The notes under the pieces were generated by a model. That model had not been told where the DNA came from. It ran no database searches and saw only the letters and a list, made by a program, of their open reading frames with translations. Shown here one piece after another: positions 1,300 through 9,520 of a stretch of 64,000 bases of DNA. The stretch is from Candidatus Methanosphaera massiliense. Its GTDB lineage: Archaea > Methanobacteriota > Methanobacteria > Methanobacteriales > Methanobacteriaceae. Numbering within the stretch: position 1 is the first letter of the stretch; each line of letters starts with the position of its first letter. Position numbers and translations under genes: made by a program. Location of the stretch: positions 2,501 through 66,500 of the forward strand of contig NZ_JARBXM010000001.1 in NCBI RefSeq assembly GCF_028890305.1. Reading direction: 5' to 3'.

Positions 1300-2253
1300 T
1301 TATAATGGTTTTTTAATACCTTCCTCTGTTATGATTCCTGTTATTAAATTTGATTCAACAATGTCAAATGCAGGATTTTCTACTCTTGTTTCTTCTCTTG
1401 CAATATATTTTCCATTAACTACCAGTACCTCTTCAGGATTTCTTTCTTCTATTTTTGTATCGAAAATATTATTTTCAAAGTCAAATGTACTTATTGGTGC
1501 TGCTACATAAAATGGTATATTATATCTTTTTGCTGCTAGTGCAACCATTAAGGAACCTATTTTATTTGCTACTCCGCCCTTGGCTACTCTGTCAGCTCCT
1601 ATAACCACTTTATCAACTTCACCTTTCTGCATCATATGTCCTGCTGCTCCGTCTACTATGAGTCTTACAGGTATATTTTCCTCCTGCATTTCAAATACAC
1701 TTAATCTTGCACCCTGAAGTACTGGTCTTGTCTCATCACAAATTACATTAATATTCTTATCATGTTCATTTGCTGCTCTTATTACACCTAATGCTGTTCC
1801 ATATCCTGCACATGCCAGTGCTCCTGCATTACAGTGTGTTAGTATAGTATCACCATCATCTATAACAGTATTTCCATATTCACCTATTTTTTTGTTGATT
1901 GATATGTCCTCTTTTTCCATTTGTATTGCTGTATCCACTGCTGTGTTTCCTTGTTCTACTGATTTTAGTACTTTATCTACTGCCCAGAACAGATTAATTG
2001 CTGTTGGTCTTGCCTGTTTTATTTCCTGTCCTGCTTGTTCTAAGTTTTCACCCTGTACTTCTGCTAGTGCCATTGCATATGCTGCTGATACACCAATTGC
2101 TGGTGCTCCTCGTACTTTCATTGTTTTTATTGCTGTGATTACTTCCTGATAAGTTTTACATTCACAGTATTCTATTTCATGTGGCAATATTGTTTGATCT
2201 AACAGGTATAATTTATTGTCTTTCCAGTATAATGTTTCTATCATAACACTCAT
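1300..2253 (-). CDS. mtnA: S-methyl-5-thioribose-1-phosphate isomerase family protein (eIF2B-like)
   Basis: The 317-residue protein belongs to the MtnA/eIF2B-alpha sugar-phosphate isomerase family. It shows the KVRGAPAIG substrate loop near residue 47, the catalytic-cysteine segment THCNAGALACAGYGTALG near 139 and IGADRVAKGGVANKIG near 218 with the catalytic aspartate. The expected reaction is methylthioribose-1-phosphate to methylthioribulose-1-phosphate in methionine salvage; a related archaeal role as ribose-1,5-bisphosphate isomerase cannot be excluded. GGAG lies 3 nt before ATG 2253 and 12 nt before ATG 2244, so the start is uncertain by three codons. It follows nifB by about 150 nt and is probably a separate unit. 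Confidence 0.88.
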   Translation of the reverse strand: MSVMIETLYWKDNKLYLLDQTILPHEIEYCECKTYQEVITAIKTMKVRGAPAIGVSAAYAMALAEVQGENLEQAGQEIKQARPTAINLFWAVDKVLKSVEQGNTAVDTAIQMEKEDISINKKIGEYGNTVIDDGDTILTHCNAGALACAGYGTALGVIRAANEHDKNINVICDETRPVLQGARLSVFEMQEENIPVRLIVDGAAGHMMQKGEVDKVVIGADRVAKGGVANKIGSLMVALAAKRYNIPFYVAAPISTFDFENNIFDTKIEERNPEEVLVVNGKYIAREETRVENPAFDIVESNLITGIITEEGIKKPL

Positions 2254-2401
2254 TTACTCCATAATATTTTCTTTTTAGATTATTTACAATTCTCTTTACT
2301 TATTACATTATATTTATTTTATAGAATTAGAATCTAACTACTTTTAATTTTATAGAAAAAAAAAGATTTAAAAAAAGGGGATTGGTGGTTATTATAGGGT
2401 A

Positions 2402-3271
2402 CTAATAATGACTATTAGGCACCATTTCTAGTGAGAAATCCTGATTCTTCTTGCCAGGTATTCCAAATGCATCTGCCCTGCACTGAGTACAAGCCCGGAA
2501 TACTGGAAGATATTCCTCAACTTCCTCTCTTACGGTGCTTAACATTCCACATCCTGGTCTTTCAACATCCTTAAATTTATTGAGTGGAATTAGTGGCAGT
2601 ACATTCATAATTGATGCACCCTTACTTTTCACAACTCTTGCAATCTCAACTATATGCTTATCATTAACACCTGGTATAAGTACACTGTTAACCTTTACTA
2701 TTACTCCGAGATTTGATAACATCTCTATACCCTTCAACTGATTTTCCAGCAGTATGTTGAATCCATCTATTCCATGATAGACTTCACCATCATATTCTAT
2801 GTCATCATATATCTGAGCACCAATCTCCGGGTCTACAGCATTTACTGTGACAGTCACTGTCTTTACTCCTACCTCTGCTATTTCCTCAGCATATCTTGGT
2901 AGTAGCAATCCATTAGTACTCATACATAGAATTAAATCCGGAAATTCCTCCCGTACTCTTCTGAATAACTCCAGTGTACCTGAGTTACATAAGGAGTCAC
3001 CTGGACCTGCTACGCCAACTACACTAATAGGCATTTTACTAGTTGTTTCGCGTATATGTTCTAAAGCCTGATCTACTGTCATGACACATGAAGCTACTCC
3101 AGGCCTATTTTCCTTGCCATCTAGTTTTCTTGTGCAGAATCCACATTGTATGTTACAGCTTGGTGCTATAGGTATATGGATTCTTCCTACTTTATCATGT
3201 ATCTTCTCATTAAAGCAGGGGTGTGCCTGTGTTACATGGGCAAAGTGTTTCATCCTCTTTTCATCATCCAT
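2402..3271 (-). CDS. nifB: NifB-type radical SAM FeS-cluster (L-cluster) synthase
   Basis: The 289-residue protein is a stand-alone NifB core without the C-terminal NifX-like domain of many bacterial NifBs. It carries HPCF (Cys19), the radical-SAM triad C39-x3-C43-x2-C46, VGVAGPGDSL near residue 83, and the C-terminal ACTQCRADAFG segment. NifB fuses two [4Fe-4S] clusters and inserts carbide and sulfur to give the [8Fe-9S-C] L-cluster. It is the last gene of the mmp operon, 61 nt after mmp17, with GGAGTG before its ATG. No nifHDKEN genes are in the window, so a role in methyl-coenzyme M reductase activation rather than nitrogenase is the inferred job. Confidence 0.92.
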   Translation of the reverse strand: MDDEKRMKHFAHVTQAHPCFNEKIHDKVGRIHIPIAPSCNIQCGFCTRKLDGKENRPGVASCVMTVDQALEHIRETTSKMPISVVGVAGPGDSLCNSGTLELFRRVREEFPDLILCMSTNGLLLPRYAEEIAEVGVKTVTVTVNAVDPEIGAQIYDDIEYDGEVYHGIDGFNILLENQLKGIEMLSNLGVIVKVNSVLIPGVNDKHIVEIARVVKSKGASIMNVLPLIPLNKFKDVERPGCGMLSTVREEVEEYLPVFRACTQCRADAFGIPGKKNQDFSLEMVPNSHY

Positions 3272-3332
3272 AATAAAAACACTCCTTATTATGTTACTGG
3301 TTTTACATGCCAGCCATGATATTCACTAATCT

Positions 3333-3884
3333 TTATTGATTTTTTACTTCTTCAATTACTTCATTAAATTTCTTGTTCCATTTTTCATCAATAATTTCAT
3401 CACTACTCATGAGACAGACAAGATTTCCTTCACTTGCATTACGTGTCATACGGAATCCTTCAGGCATTACCCTGAATAATGCATCATATACTCTGCGTTT
3501 TAGTTCTTTTGATGGGTCAACAACCATTAGATTCTCAGGGTCTATTGTCGGATTAGATATTTCAATCTTATACCTGTCTGGCTGTGCAACATTAACACGG
3601 CCTTCCTCTCTCCATAATACTCTTAACAAGTCAGGAGTATAATTCTCATTATCTATAAGTATCTTTAGTAAATCACCCTCATACTTATATGATGCCATGT
3701 CTTTCAGGTATATTGGCTGAGAAGCTTTCTCTAATTTTACAACAGCTATGAATATTGCATCTCTTGGGTCTATAAATACTTTCACTGCATTAATTGCACG
3801 TGCTAGTTTTAGTTCCTGAAGTGCATGTCTTAGTAGTGTATCATATACTTCTGCTCCTACCTCATCATAACATTCTACATACAT
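3333..3884 (-). CDS. mmp17: methanogenesis marker protein 17
   Basis: The 183-residue protein resembles the methanogen-specific marker 17 family (start MYVECYDEVGAEVYD, then a mixed alpha/beta protein with KRRVYDALFRVMPEGFRMTRN near residue 128). From family knowledge, Mmp17 copurifies with McrC, Mmp3 and Mmp7 in the ATP-dependent activation complex of methyl-coenzyme M reductase. GGAGG sits 10 nt before ATG 3884. It lies between mmp15 and nifB in one minus-strand operon. The family assignment is from memory of the sequence pattern. Confidence 0.85.
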   Translation of the reverse strand: MYVECYDEVGAEVYDTLLRHALQELKLARAINAVKVFIDPRDAIFIAVVKLEKASQPIYLKDMASYKYEGDLLKILIDNENYTPDLLRVLWREEGRVNVAQPDRYKIEISNPTIDPENLMVVDPSKELKRRVYDALFRVMPEGFRMTRNASEGNLVCLMSSDEIIDEKWNKKFNEVIEEVKNQ

Positions 3885-3922
3885 CTTAAGTTAACCTCCA
3901 CAAATAAAATGATATAAAATTC

Positions 3923-5176
3923 TTAGTATTTTTTACTATCATCAATATCTGTATCTTTAAGTCCTGATACTAGCATTGCTGCTCCTATAGAACCAATGTA
4001 CTGTGAATATTCTGGTACAATTATCTCTATTCCACCAAGAATGTCCTGTACAGCATCTACTAATCCGCCAATTAGTGATGTTCCACCTACCTGTATTAAT
4101 GGTTCACGAATATCAATTTCCTGTAATTGCTGTTCATATACCTGTTCTGCTACAGAGTGACATGCAGCACTAGCAGCATCTTCCTTCTTTGCTCCTCCTG
4201 CAAGAGATGTTACAAGGTCCTGTATACCGAATACAATACAGTAACTGTTTAGTAATGCGTTTTTATAGTTACCTTTCTGTGCCAGTGGTCCTAGTTCTGT
4301 AATATCCACCTCTAGTCTTCTACTGGTCATATCTAGGAAACGTCCTGATGCACCAGCACATATACCACCCATGGTAAAGTTATCAGGTATACCATTATTT
4401 ACAGTGATTACCTTGTTATCCATACCACCAATATCCAGTACTGTTGCTTCTCCTTTCTGAGCATCAGCCAGATATACGGCACCCTTACTGTTAACAGATA
4501 TTTCTTCCTGTATAAGTTTTGCTCCAAGAGCTTTTCCTATGGTCATACGTCCATAACCAGTTGTTCCTATTGCTTCCACATCGCCTAAGTTATAGTCTGT
4601 TTCTGCAAATGCTTGTTTCATTGCATCATCAGTACATCCCAGTATATCTCCTGTCGGAACCCATCCTGTACCTATTACTTCATCATTTTCCATGAGTGCT
4701 ACTTTTGTTGTGGTGGATCCGCTGTCTATTCCAAGAGTAAGTCCTTCCTGTTTTTCACGTGCAAGTATACTTTTTCGTGATACAACTGTTGTTAATGCTT
4801 CCATACGTATAAATAACTCTGATGCTTTTGTTTTCTCTGTGAAGGAGTATGTTACTACTGGCAGGTCTGTATTATTTTGGATTAATCTACGTACTTCATT
4901 TCTTGTAATAGCTGCTTCTGCACATCTGAAACAGGTACATATGAATACTGCATCTGCCTCGTTTTTACCTTCTACTAATGACATTGCTCTTGCTATCATC
5001 AGTTTTAAACTAGAACTTGCACAGTTTAAACCAAATTTTTCAAATGCTTCGTCAATATCATCAAGGTTTACATCAGGTAATACCATCTGTGCTCCGAACA
5101 TTTCAGCTGCTTTTTCTATTTCCTTTTGTATACCACTGTATTCAGTACCACATGATAATTGTGCTATCTTTATCAT
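3923..5176 (-). CDS. mmp15: methanogenesis marker protein 15 (BadF/BcrA-type ATPase activator)
   Basis: The 417-residue protein has an N-terminal region with a Cys pair ([11 protein letters not shown] near residue 80) and a C-terminal ASKHA ATPase domain: phosphate-1 motif [13 protein letters not shown] near 149 and [13 protein letters not shown] near 270, the cysteine loop that in 2-hydroxyacyl-CoA dehydratase activators holds a subunit-bridging [4Fe-4S] cluster. It is therefore predicted to be an ATP-driven low-potential electron injector. Its ribosome binding site lies within the terminal Glu codons (GAG GAG GAG GAA) of the preceding gene, with the stop one base before ATG 5176, indicating translational coupling. 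Confidence 0.87.
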
Positions 5177-5177
5177 A

Positions 5178-5624
5178 TTATTCCTCCTCCTCTTTTAGAT
5201 TGTCAAGAAATGTATTTATTTTATACACCATTTCTACTGTAGCATCTCTAGATGTTGGGTACTCTAATTCAAGAATTGGAATGTTTCGTCTTCTTAGTGA
5301 AAATACTGTTAATTCTGCAGAACGTGCGCATCCCACACATCCAAATCCATATGGTGCTTCACTCATTATTATTGCTGCTTCTGCTTGTTCTATTATTGGT
5401 CCAAATAGAGACATACGACCTCTTACACCGGAAGGCACTTCAATTGCAGCATATTTAAGTCCATTTATTGGGTCTTCTTCTGTCATGTTAAATGGTGGCG
5501 CATCTATATCCGGACTTGTTACTTTCTGCTTCATTTCTTTTTGAACTACTAGCGGTTCATGTCCACTTCTAACTATCATGTCTGCTAGAATCATAGAGTT
5601 AGGTGGAAATATTGCAACTTTCAT
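5178..5624 (-). CDS. mmp5: methanogenesis marker 5-type protein, copy 2
   Basis: The 148-residue protein fits the methanogen-specific marker 5 family. It contains PPFNM near residue 43, [13 protein letters not shown] near 64, a conserved CVGCAR motif near 96 and [11 protein letters not shown] near 115. Function is unknown; the Cys-x2-Cys suggests metal or cluster binding. It is a tandem paralog of the gene just upstream (5627..6268), which has the same motifs in the same order. AAGGAG precedes the ATG, and the gene is coupled to mmp15 downstream. Confidence 0.78.
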
Positions 5625-5626
5625 AA

Positions 5627-6268
5627 TTATTTATTCTCCTTATTAAATCTTTCTTCTTGTTCTACTTCATTTACTATATTTCTAAATTCATAGGGTGTTA
5701 TTTTTTTATTAGATGGTCTTAACTCTACAGTTAAGTTATCATCATTTATTATTCCCGGCTTTATCTCATCAGTTCCCAGTTTCTGAAGAAAATCATTTAC
5801 TCTATTAATTAGACTTATTATTTCATCTCTATTAGTAGGGTATGCTAATTCTAGTATAGGAATATTCTTCTGTTTTAGTAATTTCACTACTAATTTATAT
5901 TGATTTGCACAGCCAATACAGCTGAATAATATTAACTCATTTAGATTGTCATACATGTGCTTATACTTACGTGGAGGCGGTCCTAATATTATTGCCGCTT
6001 CTGAATTCTGAATTATATTATCAAATAATGATAAACGTCCTCTTAATCCTGATGGTGTTTCACAGGAGGCATATTTATTACCAGCCATTACTTCATGTCC
6101 TTTCATATTAAATGGTGGCTCATCACGGTCAAAAGCTTCATCTGCATATGGGTCTCTGTCACGTAATTTATCTTCACTCATATTTGTTGCTGATAATACT
6201 TCATGACCATTCTTTGTTACTAGATGTGTGATTATCATTGCAAGGTCAGGTAGTACTGCAACCTCCAT
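5627..6268 (-). CDS. methanogenesis marker 5-like protein, copy 1 (longer paralog)
   Basis: The 213-residue protein is a clear paralog of its downstream neighbour: PPFNM near residue 51, [13 protein letters not shown] near 69, CIGCAN near 115 and [12 protein letters not shown] near 135 match in order and spacing. It carries an insertion before the CxGC motif ([16 protein letters not shown]) and a 50-residue C-terminal extension. The gap to the next gene is 2 nt, so the two are cotranscribed and perhaps form a heterodimer (inference). The role is unknown beyond the methanogenesis context. Confidence 0.75.
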
Positions 6269-6296
6269 ATTATCATCCCATGAGTCTTTTTTCTAT

Positions 6297-6794
6297 TTAC
6301 TTGTTTTTCTCTGTTTCTTCAACTATTTTCTTAAATTCTTCTACAGGAATCTTTTTTGGAGGATTTAAGTCAACATGTTTCGGATGTTCTAATGCATAAC
6401 TTACATCAGGTAATAATTTATATTCTGCTTCTAGTTGATGGAATCCTTCACGGGCTCCTCCTCTTTTTGCCCTACATCTTCTAGGGTCACCTGGTGGAAA
6501 TCCTCTGAATTTTATGAAAATATGTGTTGGATCTAATGCTCTTGCCTTAGTAACAGCTTCCATAACATACTCCGGAACACCATTAATATTTGCTCCATAG
6601 CATGTTAGACGAATATTTATTGGTAGTTCTAGTAAATGTAAGAAGTTCATTAATTCCTTTGAACTTACAGCACATCCAGGTCCTAAAACTATCATCCTGG
6701 TTATTTTATCTTTTTGATCAGAATCCCTGTATGTTCCATCCCCCATAGGGATATGACAGAATTCTGTGTCAATATCTTTATCGTTCTTTGACAT
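6297..6794 (-). CDS. mmp6: methanogenesis marker protein 6
   Basis: The 165-residue protein resembles methanogenesis marker 6, with [15 protein letters not shown] near residue 35 and [19 protein letters not shown] near 96. Function is unknown. The frame stays open upstream to 6833, but the start at 6794 (MSKNDKD) is preferred because GGAAGGAGA lies about 10 nt before it, inside the end of mmp3. The two genes overlap by 17 nt, which implies translational coupling. The Arg/Lys-rich RRCRAKRGG stretch is notable for a predicted soluble protein. Confidence 0.78.
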
Positions 6795-8310
6795 AAACAG
6801 TATCTCCTTCCTTGAATGCTTTGAAGTTTTCAAATCCTGCAGTTACTTTTCCTATTATATTTGTTCCACTGAATGATTCACCAGTAGGACCAAATTCATC
6901 ATTATCTATAAATCTGATTCCTATGTTACCAACGTGTTTTGTTGCAGTGTTACTTACACAGATTTCCCATGCTTTTACTTCTCCGTCTGGTAATTTTTCA
7001 GGTATTAGACCTTTTGCTTCTTTATTCACTGCTTTAAACATTATCAGATTCATTTCAGGTATGGCCATGTTTGTTCTTAAGTGTCCTACATCACCACTTA
7101 ATAGTCCTGATATCTTTCTGAAATACCATACTGAGCTTGGACTTTCATCTTCATATAATTCTATTTCTACAAAGTCCTCTGGTGGTACTCCTAGTGTTTT
7201 TATTTTCTTGGATTTATCTATATCTACTGTGTATAATGGGTCTTGTGCTACTACCACTGCATCATCATCTGTTAGACCATCACGTGTATGTTCTATTCCT
7301 CTAGATTCTAGGTATTCATCTGCTTCTTTTTGTGTTAATGCTACTGTTGATATTCTCTCAGGATTTGTTATTATTGTTATTTTATCGTTTTCTTTAATTG
7401 TGTCTAGTAATTGCATTCCTTTTGTAACATGACCTACAATATTATGTGTTGGTACGGATACTCTGTCTTCTCTGTAGATGTATATTTTACCTACACCTGC
7501 ACCTTGATTTCTTAGAGTAACTGCACCTCTTTTTCTTTTCTCGATTACCTCAGAATCTCTTTCTAAACCTTTTAATGTATCGTTTTCGACGAATGTTTCT
7601 GATTCATAGTCTACTTTTAGTGTTCCTTTTTCTATGATTTTTAGAAAGTGTTCGAATGATACTGGTGCATCAGGGTTTGCTGTGACTTCTAAATATGTGA
7701 AGATTTCATTTCCTTCTTGTAGTTCTGTTGAGAAATCTGTTACAGCTGCACTTTTTATAACGCTTTTTCTTTCAATTACAGGTTCTATATCTATGATTTC
7801 ATCAGTATTATCTAGTTTTAGTAAGTTTCTTTTTCCACCTACTACTGTTGCGAATATTCCTTTATTTTGGTCAGGAACACCATATACTGATTGATGTTTA
7901 GATTTAGAGAAGATTATATGAGTAGCCTCATTTGAAAATCCGGATAAGCTTATTATCACATCCCACCTATTATATAAAAATTCATCATTAGTAGGTTCTA
8001 AATCAGATACTATTGAACCCATTGCTACTTCATGAGTAGTGGTCCACCGTATGACTTTACTAATAAATTCTTTATAATTATTCTTCCAGAAATCAGTTAA
8101 AATATCAGCATTTTTAACTAATTCAATAATTATACTGCCCTTTGTAGTTTTTATTTTATACTTATTAACATGGCCTTCTAGTACCTCTCTTCCTTCTATT
8201 AAGGCAATAGCTGAGCCATCTATATAAGGAGCATTTGATTTTTTTATAGCATCTTCAACGGTTGAACCAGCATTCATATCCATTTCAACATCATTGATTT
8301 TTATTTGCAT
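6778..8310 (-). CDS. mmp3: methanogenesis marker protein 3 (UPF0288)
   Basis: The 510-residue protein matches the UPF0288/marker 3 family, with a ubiquitin-like N-terminus ([21 protein letters not shown], residues 1-60) and two cyclophilin-like segments in the middle and C-terminal parts ([14 protein letters not shown] near 284, [15 protein letters not shown] near 480). Mmp3 is known to copurify with McrC, Mmp7 and Mmp17 in the MCR activation complex. It is the first gene of the seven-gene minus-strand operon ending with nifB, and the 226-nt spacer upstream must hold the operon promoter. Confidence 0.88.
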
Positions 8311-8476
8311 TTTTTCGCCTCAATAAGAACTAAAATTTTTTTTGATTGAAAAAAATTATCAATTCTTAAATATATATTAGAAATTATTTTTGAAGTATTT
8401 CTATATTTTTAATTTATAAGTTTTATAGTATTAATAACTTCTAATTAATTAGATATTATCTTAAATAAGAAGTAGT

Positions 8477-8503
8477 AAAAAAGGCTGATAATAATAAATT
8501 ATC
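8477..8503 (-). terminator. hairpin plus T-run after mmp2
   Basis: Read on the minus strand, GATAAT (8503..8498), a 5-nt loop and ATTATC (8492..8487) are followed by a run of six T (8482..8477). It lies about 35 nt after the mmp2 stop and before the promoter area of the mmp3 operon, so mmp2 probably ends here. The stem is short and AT-rich, so the T-run may do most of the work. Confidence 0.45.
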
Positions 8504-8536
8504 ATAAAAAGAGAATAAAAGGAGATTATAGTGGAT

Positions 8537-9520
8537 TTATTTGTCCTCTGAGAATCCCATGATAATTTCTGAGCTAAAATCAAAGACTGTTTTTTTATCA
8601 TTTTTGTATGACATAGATAGTTTATGATTATCTGTTACTTTACCTATACATTCTGCATTGATGTGTGAATTGTTAAGTAATCTGATTGCTTCGTCGGTTG
8701 TTTCTTCTGGTGCTGTTAGTACAAATGCACTTCCAGGATACATTTTAAACCATTGTATCCAGTCAATGTTATCTGCTCGTGGTATTTTTTCCATGTCTAT
8801 GTCTGCACCCATATTAGATGCTTCTAATAGCATTCCTAAAGTTCCTACTATTCCAGGGTTACTTATATCTTTTCCTGCATGTACTAATTGTTTTTTACCT
8901 ATTGTGTTCATTATTTTTATTTGGTCTTGAACGTATTGTGGTGTTTTATCGCTTGTTGTATCCCAGTTGATATCTGTTCCTGGGTATACTTGACCATCTA
9001 GATCTATTGCTACTATTACATTGTCATCTTTTTTTGCACCACAGCTTGGTATTATTGCATCTTTATCTACAATACCACTAATAGCAACATCTAATGCATT
9101 GTATGGTGTGTCTGGATGAGTATGACCACCAACCATTGGAACACCAAATTTCTTAACACCCTCTTTTATTCCATCCATAATTTGTGATGTGATATCAGAA
9201 TCAGATGATGATAATACATTAGTCATTCCCATTGGAAGTCCGCCCATAGCAGCTATGTCATTTACATTTACTAGTACTGAACAATAACCTGACCACCATG
9301 GGTCCACACTCATTAATGAACCCCATATACCATCAGTTGCTAGTAACATTAACTGATTATTACCTATATCTACAGCTGCTGCATCATCGCCAAAAGCTAG
9401 GTAAACATTACCTGATATATTATAAATATCTTTAAGTTTTTCACGTACATCTGCTATGGAGTGTTTTCTTGTTACTCCCTTAAATGTTCTTATTGATTCA
9501 ATTATTTCATTAAAATCCAC
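8537..9520 (-). CDS. mmp2: methanogenesis marker protein 2 (AIR synthase-related)
   Basis: The 327-residue protein belongs to the PurM/SelD/HypE-like ATP-binding superfamily, in the methanogen-specific marker 2 branch. It has GDDAAAVDIG near residue 44, NVNDIAAMGG near 86, VGGHTHPD near 130 and ISNPGIVGTLGMLLEAS near 220. The substrate is unknown. The start is a GTG (9520..9518) with GAGG 8 nt upstream; the nearby ATG at 9527 is out of frame. It is transcribed in the same direction as the mmp3 operon but is separated from it by a terminator. Confidence 0.85.
   Translation of the reverse strand: MDFNEIIESIRTFKGVTRKHSIADVREKLKDIYNISGNVYLAFGDDAAAVDIGNNQLMLLATDGIWGSLMSVDPWWSGYCSVLVNVNDIAAMGGLPMGMTNVLSSSDSDITSQIMDGIKEGVKKFGVPMVGGHTHPDTPYNALDVAISGIVDKDAIIPSCGAKKDDNVIVAIDLDGQVYPGTDINWDTTSDKTPQYVQDQIKIMNTIGKKQLVHAGKDISNPGIVGTLGMLLEASNMGADIDMEKIPRADNIDWIQWFKMYPGSAFVLTAPEETTDEAIRLLNNSHINAECIGKVTDNHKLSMSYKNDKKTVFDFSSEIIMGFSEDK

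Follow-up and report, generated by a model that had tools for sequence, protein, structure and literature searches.

Seven genes on the minus strand of the Candidatus Methanosphaera massiliense genome (1.786 Mb in two contigs, 99.88% complete) form a compact unit that begins with mmp3 and ends with nifB. The unit occupies positions 8310-2402 of the 64-kb stretch analysed here (the window; contig 1, bases 2501-66500), and our subject is the place of NifB in it and the probable bearing of that place on the activation of methyl-coenzyme M reductase (MCR). The list of open reading frames (ORFs), together with profile searches, gives the order mmp3-mmp6-mmp5 paralogue-mmp5-mmp15-mmp17-nifB; the ORF coordinates and family profiles thereby confirm the tight same-strand array that a first reading of the DNA had described. 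The succession mmp3, mmp6, mmp5, mmp15, mmp17, nifB on a single strand is that of the Methanobacteriales mmp-nifB locus.

6778..8310, minus strand: mmp3, first gene of the unit, for a subunit of the MCR activation complex (TIGR03268, E 3.8e-217)
6297..6833, minus strand: mmp6 (DUF2102), with a ferredoxin-like core in the model (TIGR03272, 3.1e-50)
5627..6268, minus strand: mmp5 paralogue, 213 aa (DUF2112, 1.1e-45)
5178..5624, minus strand: mmp5 (DUF2112), 148 aa, with an invariant C96xGC99, proposed partner of Mmp15 (TIGR03271, 2.4e-73)
3923..5176, minus strand: mmp15, proposed ATP-driven electron injector (TIGR03286, 7.2e-213; CoA_E_activ, 7.1e-96; 4eht, 3.8e-32)
3333..3884, minus strand: mmp17, for a subunit of the MCR activation complex (TIGR03291, 3.6e-69; 8s7v_G, 4.6e-15)
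2402..3271, minus strand: nifB, 289 aa, radical SAM protein without a NifX domain (TIGR01290, 3.4e-92; 7jmb_A, 4.6e-124)
2356..2376, minus strand: a pair of T-tracts, of 7 and 9 T, immediately 3' of nifB, a probable archaeal terminator
8311..8536, minus strand: A+T-rich spacer of 226 bp on the upstream side of mmp3, probably holding the promoter of the unit and the mmp2 terminator
8537..9520, minus strand: mmp2 (AIR-synthase-like), a neighbour conserved on the upstream side that probably forms a unit of its own
1300..2253, minus strand: mtnA (methylthioribose-1-phosphate isomerase), downstream neighbour past the T-tracts

The mmp6 gene probably starts at an in-frame ATG at 6794 and not at the listed TTG at 6833, which would enlarge the overlap with mmp3. 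With this start the gaps within the unit are -17, 28, 2, 1, 38 and 61 bp, and no run of six or more T was found in its intergenic gaps; the flanks, of 226 bp towards mmp2 and 148 bp towards mtnA, both contain T-tracts of 6-9. Because the gaps are tight and free of T-runs and the flanks carry T-tracts, a single seven-gene transcript ending 3' of nifB is plausible. The original prediction that nifB closes the operon thus holds for the source genome, where the T-tracts follow it, but does not extend to the class: in three loci (L018-L020) mtnA lies within ~20 bp of nifB.

The mmp5 paralogue is 44% identical to Mmp5 and, with 112.9 bits, falls short of the 140.25 bits that TIGR03271 demands. A scan of contigs anchored on mmp15 gave at least 80 named loci from Methanobacteriales (one titled only Euryarchaeota and one only archaeon); among the 80 listed, tblastn placed the paralogue between mmp6 and mmp5 in 7 and a different gene, of 123 aa, in 6.

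NifB, its linkage to mmp17 and the probable demand for L-clusters

The window NifB carries all four motifs that we take to define the family (HPCF, CxxxCxxC, ExRPG and CxxCRAD, the last present as CTQCRAD); among 81 NifB sequences a deviation occurs in four, at ExRPG only. Its best solved matches are the NifB structures 7jmb and 7bi7 (E 4.6e-124 across residues 4-289). The protein misses the curated TIGR01290 cut-off (309.5 against 343.65 bits, over model positions 8-291 of 441), as does every NifB in a sample of 130 Methanobacteria genomes, and since these include a genome whose NifB chain has been crystallised (G015, only 306.7 bits), the low score is read as the absence of the C-terminal part and not as failed membership. 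The mmp-linked NifB of locus L020 is identical to the crystallised chain, letter for letter, across the stretch compared. The window NifB groups with Methanosphaera copies, shares 99% identity with the L105 copy and, judged from its family, would make the [8Fe-9S-C] L-cluster.

Linkage was computed on the 130 class genomes alone, with a threshold of E 1e-50 for nifB. The mmp17 gene is present in 126, nifB in 124 and both in 123. In 116 of these 123 genomes nifB lies downstream of mmp17 on the same contig and strand, within 44-623 bp (median 118). The remaining seven are assemblies in 200-490 pieces, with the two genes on separate contigs. Three genomes have mmp17 only (G096, G104 and G111), one has nifB only (G129) and three have neither (G109, G116 and the partly masked G020). 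G020, a single-contig genome of the same genus, was not accepted as a true loss, its region being partly N, and was counted as a miss throughout. The linkage across methanogens that the first reading had anticipated is therefore conserved within this class, and the mmp15-anchored loci agree: of the 80 listed, 69 have nifB next after mmp17 with no change of strand, and several of the other 11 stop within ~1 kb. A larger phylum sample (151 genomes) proved to hold the same single class, with Methanococci and Methanosarcina outside the comparison; there, at 1e-40, mmp17 was found in 145 genomes and nifB in 142.

The gene on the other side of nifB is held less closely. Among the 69 loci, mtnA stands 3' of nifB in 49, at a variable 7-4873 bp, and by comparison with the 44-623 bp found in 116 of 123 genomes the mmp17-nifB order is more tightly held than the nifB-mtnA order. 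MtnA-type enzymes can salvage SAM-cleavage products, such as radical SAM enzymes would release.

Retention of nifB was compared with the presence of nitrogenase-type genes, as PF00148 matches at 1e-40; CfbD of F430 synthesis scores under this threshold in the source genome. At least two matches occur in 37 of the 130 genomes, 35 of them with nifB (the misses are G096 and G111); one match occurs in seven genomes, all with nifB; and no match occurs in 86, of which 82 have nifB (the misses are G020, G104, G109 and G116). Thus nifB persists in genomes that show no D/K-type client at this threshold. NifB is reported to be essential in methanogens even without nitrogenase (PMC12176620).

A probable demand for its product is seen in Methanococcus maripaludis. 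Others have shown which subunits make up the MCR activation complex of that organism, its structure and its need for ATP, and the complex holds three [8Fe-9S-C]-like clusters, whose carbide is not settled there; the ligands given are C12, C55, H49 and H118 of McrC and H84, C143 and possibly C90 of Mmp7, and NifB is named as the probable maker of the clusters (PMC12176620). The L-cluster link is repeated in PMC13245594. By alignment, with positions counted by eye, all seven ligands are the same residues in the source genome (McrC C12, H49, C55 and H118; Mmp7 H84, C143 and, tentatively, C90), and the window Mmp17 matches the solved M. maripaludis Mmp17 (8s7v_G).

Linkage in 116 of 123 genomes, retention in 82 of 86 and conservation of seven ligands out of seven lend support to the idea, already present in the original prediction, that the placement of nifB reflects a supply of L-clusters to MCR. 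As a whole, the best explanation is that the locus is the MCR-activation operon of Methanobacteriales and that its NifB supplies L-clusters for MCR activation, which we consider very probable. NifB would build the carbide-centred L-cluster and thereby supply McrC and Mmp7; seated in these two proteins, the clusters would, with Mmp17, Mmp3 and ATPase A2, form a wire for electrons to Ni(II) in the F430 of MCR, and the Mmp15 activase, perhaps with Mmp5, would raise the electrons to the needed potential. Both the nifB-mmp linkage and the step from NifB to MCR are already published (PMC12176620), and the locus described here is a further example.

Several observations weigh against this explanation. 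In the literature covered, to the extent that its text was available, no experiment was found that directly links NifB to MCR activation, and NifB could have a further client. Among the loci listed, that of Methanovirga procula (L053) extends 8.7 kb beyond mmp15 without a nifB, and tblastn found no mmp or nif gene in a 16-kb stretch that surrounds nifB in G098. Since M. maripaludis has its further mmp genes scattered (PMC12176620), the mmp-nifB linkage is not required. As a separate observation, the Methanovirga-type methanogens (L053, L138 and L144) have nifB outside the mmp operon.

The further client might even be the principal one, if the NifB cluster served another essential enzyme, one whose gene is among the mmp genes or accompanies them. 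Mmp5, Mmp6 and Mmp15 each contain invariant cysteines without an assigned use, and a study that notes the position of nifB apart from nif genes leaves open a possible extra NifB function (PMC8809328). Clusters of L-cluster topology have nevertheless been seen in McrC and Mmp7, and their ligands are kept here. We know of no other consumer of L-clusters in these operons and hold this alternative to be very unlikely.

A second NifB beside a nitrogenase-like operon

As the first reading had noted, the window is free of nitrogenase genes: the source genome has three places that match PF00148 (D and K side by side on contig 2, and a short match with the size of CfbD) and four that match PF00142, none of them inside the 64 kb. 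A PF00148 profile search of the whole genome likewise found no nifDKEN, vnf or anf set, but contig 2 carries a nitrogenase-like operon of four genes, D-K-H-B (L008:7168-12176), with a nifB paralogue of its own.

The product of B, the second NifB, is 72% identical to the window NifB, and H is NifH-like, just below the nifH cut-off. The nearest solved chain to D is MarD (3.8e-69, against 7.1e-29 for nitrogenase) and that to K is MarK (5e-83, against 9.1e-16). A reading of D-K as a fused nitrogenase in a single frame of 1043 aa was rejected, as the frame holds two genes split by TAA. Across 15 D proteins, that of the source genome included, Cys96, Cys122, Cys190 and Cys306 are invariant, and three cysteines are invariant across 16 K proteins. 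Cys306 occupies the position of a Cys270-type ligand; Cys96, Cys122 and Cys190 we take to resemble P-cluster ligands, and under two of the three modes of alignment used Cys96 falls on the cysteine of nitrogenase. MarD His429 does not align with a His in the D proteins. His485 and Cys468 are conserved in 14 of 15 each and may replace it as ligand; His485 does not align with the NifD His either. Because the His429 ligand is unmatched, though the Cys270-type cysteine is kept, we make no claim that the enzyme is a methylthio-alkane reductase (MAR), and D-K-H-B is best called a predicted nitrogenase-like enzyme related to MAR. No report of a D-K-H-B operon in Methanosphaera was found in the open-access literature, which is not proof of absence.

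Four of the 130 genomes, all belonging to the genus of the source genome, carry a second NifB. In three (G000, G068 and G103) the copy stands beside D-K-H, and in G080 it does not; in G095, of the same species, D-K-H runs into the end of its contig (L130), beyond which a copy could lie. The second NifB of G080 (L010:8876-9757) is long-branched, with no D-K-H nearby. Related D-K-H loci are present in several other Methanobacteria genomes, and at 11 MAR-related loci from other genera no NifB was found within the stretch examined. In a tree of 81 distinct NifB sequences, rooted at its midpoint only, the copies linked to D-K-H group together (100/97) within a clade of 20 (100/99) that otherwise consists of 15 mmp-linked copies of Methanosphaera type, the G080 copy and one unassigned Methanobacteriaceae sequence. 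The simplest reading is that the second NifB is a duplicate from near the base of the genus, of which one copy was apparently recruited to the nitrogenase-like operon. Within the phylum sample, one genome of another genus (G147) shows two adjacent NifB matches (C75:400-2160).

These findings bear on the possibility that nifB sits in the mmp operon through inherited gene order only, its client being an enzyme, nitrogenase or nitrogenase-like, whose genes lie in another part of the genome. A candidate client exists in the MAR-related operon on the second contig, 37 of the 130 genomes have at least two D/K-type matches, and nitrogenase-bearing relatives such as G015 have a single nifB. Against this possibility, nifB is present in 82 of the 86 genomes that lack a PF00148 match at 1e-40, and the nitrogenase-like operon found here has its own nifB. 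A box of the form GGAAN6TTCC, which we take as the NrpR-type consensus, was found neither in L008 nor in the window, which says little at chance expectations of 0.17 and 0.67. We regard inherited order alone as improbable. The second NifB beside D-K-H probably serves the D-K-H enzyme, so that the copy in the mmp operon would be left to MCR. Where a genome has two NifB copies, nature itself keeps two uses of the L-cluster apart, as single-copy genomes cannot.

Mmp15, Mmp5 and a possible source of electrons

MCR activation demands a very low potential, and by what means methanogens attain it is an open question in methane biology, for which the operon provides a short list of actors. Because Ti(III) citrate supplied the electrons to the complex in the published work, the physiological electron injector is still missing; a larger fraction, A3a, activates MCR with dithiothreitol (PMC9081873).

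Mmp15 combines an N-terminal domain of ~145 aa, with invariant Cys 9, 82 and 85 (L020 numbering), and an activase of the 2-hydroxyacyl-CoA dehydratase type. The activase part matches the BadF/BadG family and retains, in 14 of 14 proteins, Cys 273 and Cys 313, which we take to be the cluster-binding pair. Family and conserved cysteines thus favour the suggestion of the first reading that Mmp15 is an electron injector.

The same reading had cast Mmp5 and Mmp6 as candidates for cluster transfer, and for this we obtained no support. Among the six top Foldseek matches of the Mmp5 model, four are activase-partner (dehydratase-type) proteins, none significant alone, so that the model leans weakly to that family. 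The Mmp6 model shows a plain ferredoxin-like fold, also weakly (best match 2eky_D, E 4.6e-4, TM 0.31). The Mmp5 profile gave no match to McrC, Mmp7 or the NifX-type protein of the genome, nor the Mmp6 profile to Mmp7, both being shallow (Neff <2), and no NifX-type protein appears among the listed fold matches of either, which excludes nothing. The genome has a single protein of this NifX/NafY type (PF02579; L137:1456-1803, contig 1 match 277440-277703); it is unlinked to both nifB copies and is a candidate cluster carrier.

Likeness to the dehydratase partner was pursued with a comparison set of 10 sequences, in which annotated dehydratase- or activase-related proteins are mixed with neighbouring ORFs that carry no annotation, some of them activases. 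With the profile of the Mmp15 N-terminal domain, the top scorer among 714 non-family sequences is an activase-related protein (13.7 bits, the next 7.0), and the Mmp5 profile stays at background, with comparison sequences at ranks 5, 35, 43, 237 and lower of 728. A pattern made after the sequences had been seen (strand-Cys-17-19 residues-[ILV]P) occurs in all 14 Mmp15 N-terminal domains, in 4 of the 10 comparison sequences, in none of 1019 background ORFs and in none of 52 Mmp5 proteins; by eye the Cys-to-P spacing of Mmp5 fits it, with a longer loop before the Cys. The link to HGD-D, the domain of dehydratase and DCCP proteins, is weakened by Pfam, where Mmp5 gave no match to it up to E 10 and a scan of the Mmp15 N-terminal domain gave none, the sub-threshold matches being led by CGGC (E 0.011 and 0.021 in two homologues). 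No HGD-D protein exceeds the cut-off in 40 class genomes.

An electron injector formed of Mmp15 and Mmp5 is, on these sequences and models, a testable lead and not a result. In its fullest form the proposal has two parts: that Mmp15 (activase plus dehydratase-like domain) and Mmp5 (a free domain of the same kind) would make an ATP-driven, DCCP-like injector that charges the L-cluster wire of MCR activation, and that L-cluster supply in organisms of Methanosphaera type would be split between two dedicated NifB paralogues, of which the first serves MCR and the second a nitrogenase-like reductase. Taken together, we offer the two parts tentatively, as more probably wrong than right. No paper on methanogen Mmp5 or Mmp15 was found in the open-access literature, which does not prove that none exists. 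What this analysis adds, the second NifB with its nitrogenase-like operon and the possible Mmp15/Mmp5 pair, deserves follow-up.

Comparison with known systems

The M. maripaludis activation complex (PDB 8s7v/8s7x/9h1l) has homologues here of McrC, Mmp7 and Mmp17, the seven cluster ligands are shared and Mmp3 is present. The window Mmp17 is diverged (E 4.6e-15), and the published account, as far as available, does not list Mmp5, Mmp6, Mmp15 or NifB with the subunits that co-purified. In Methanothermobacter marburgensis the mmp cluster MTBMA c04360-c04410, followed by nifB (PMC12176620), is the same kind of locus. The Methanothermobacter-like locus L020 reads mmp3-mmp6-123 aa-mmp5-mmp15-mmp17-nifB-mtnA, whereas here a second mmp5 copy replaces the 123-aa gene and T-tracts part nifB from mtnA.

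With the DCCP:DCCP-reductase and 2-hydroxyacyl-CoA dehydratase/activase systems Mmp15 shares the activase domain and both cluster cysteines. Likeness to the dehydratase-type partner is weak, residing in the model of Mmp5 and, by profile, in the N-terminal domain of Mmp15; unlike the proteins of the dehydratase/activase systems, Mmp5 is a single small domain. Set against MarBHDK (PDB 9fmg/9d9u), the contig 2 operon has D and K proteins far nearer to MarD and MarK than to nitrogenase, includes a NifB-like gene and keeps MarD Cys270, but leaves MarD His429 unmatched, with the conserved His485 and Cys468 elsewhere in D.

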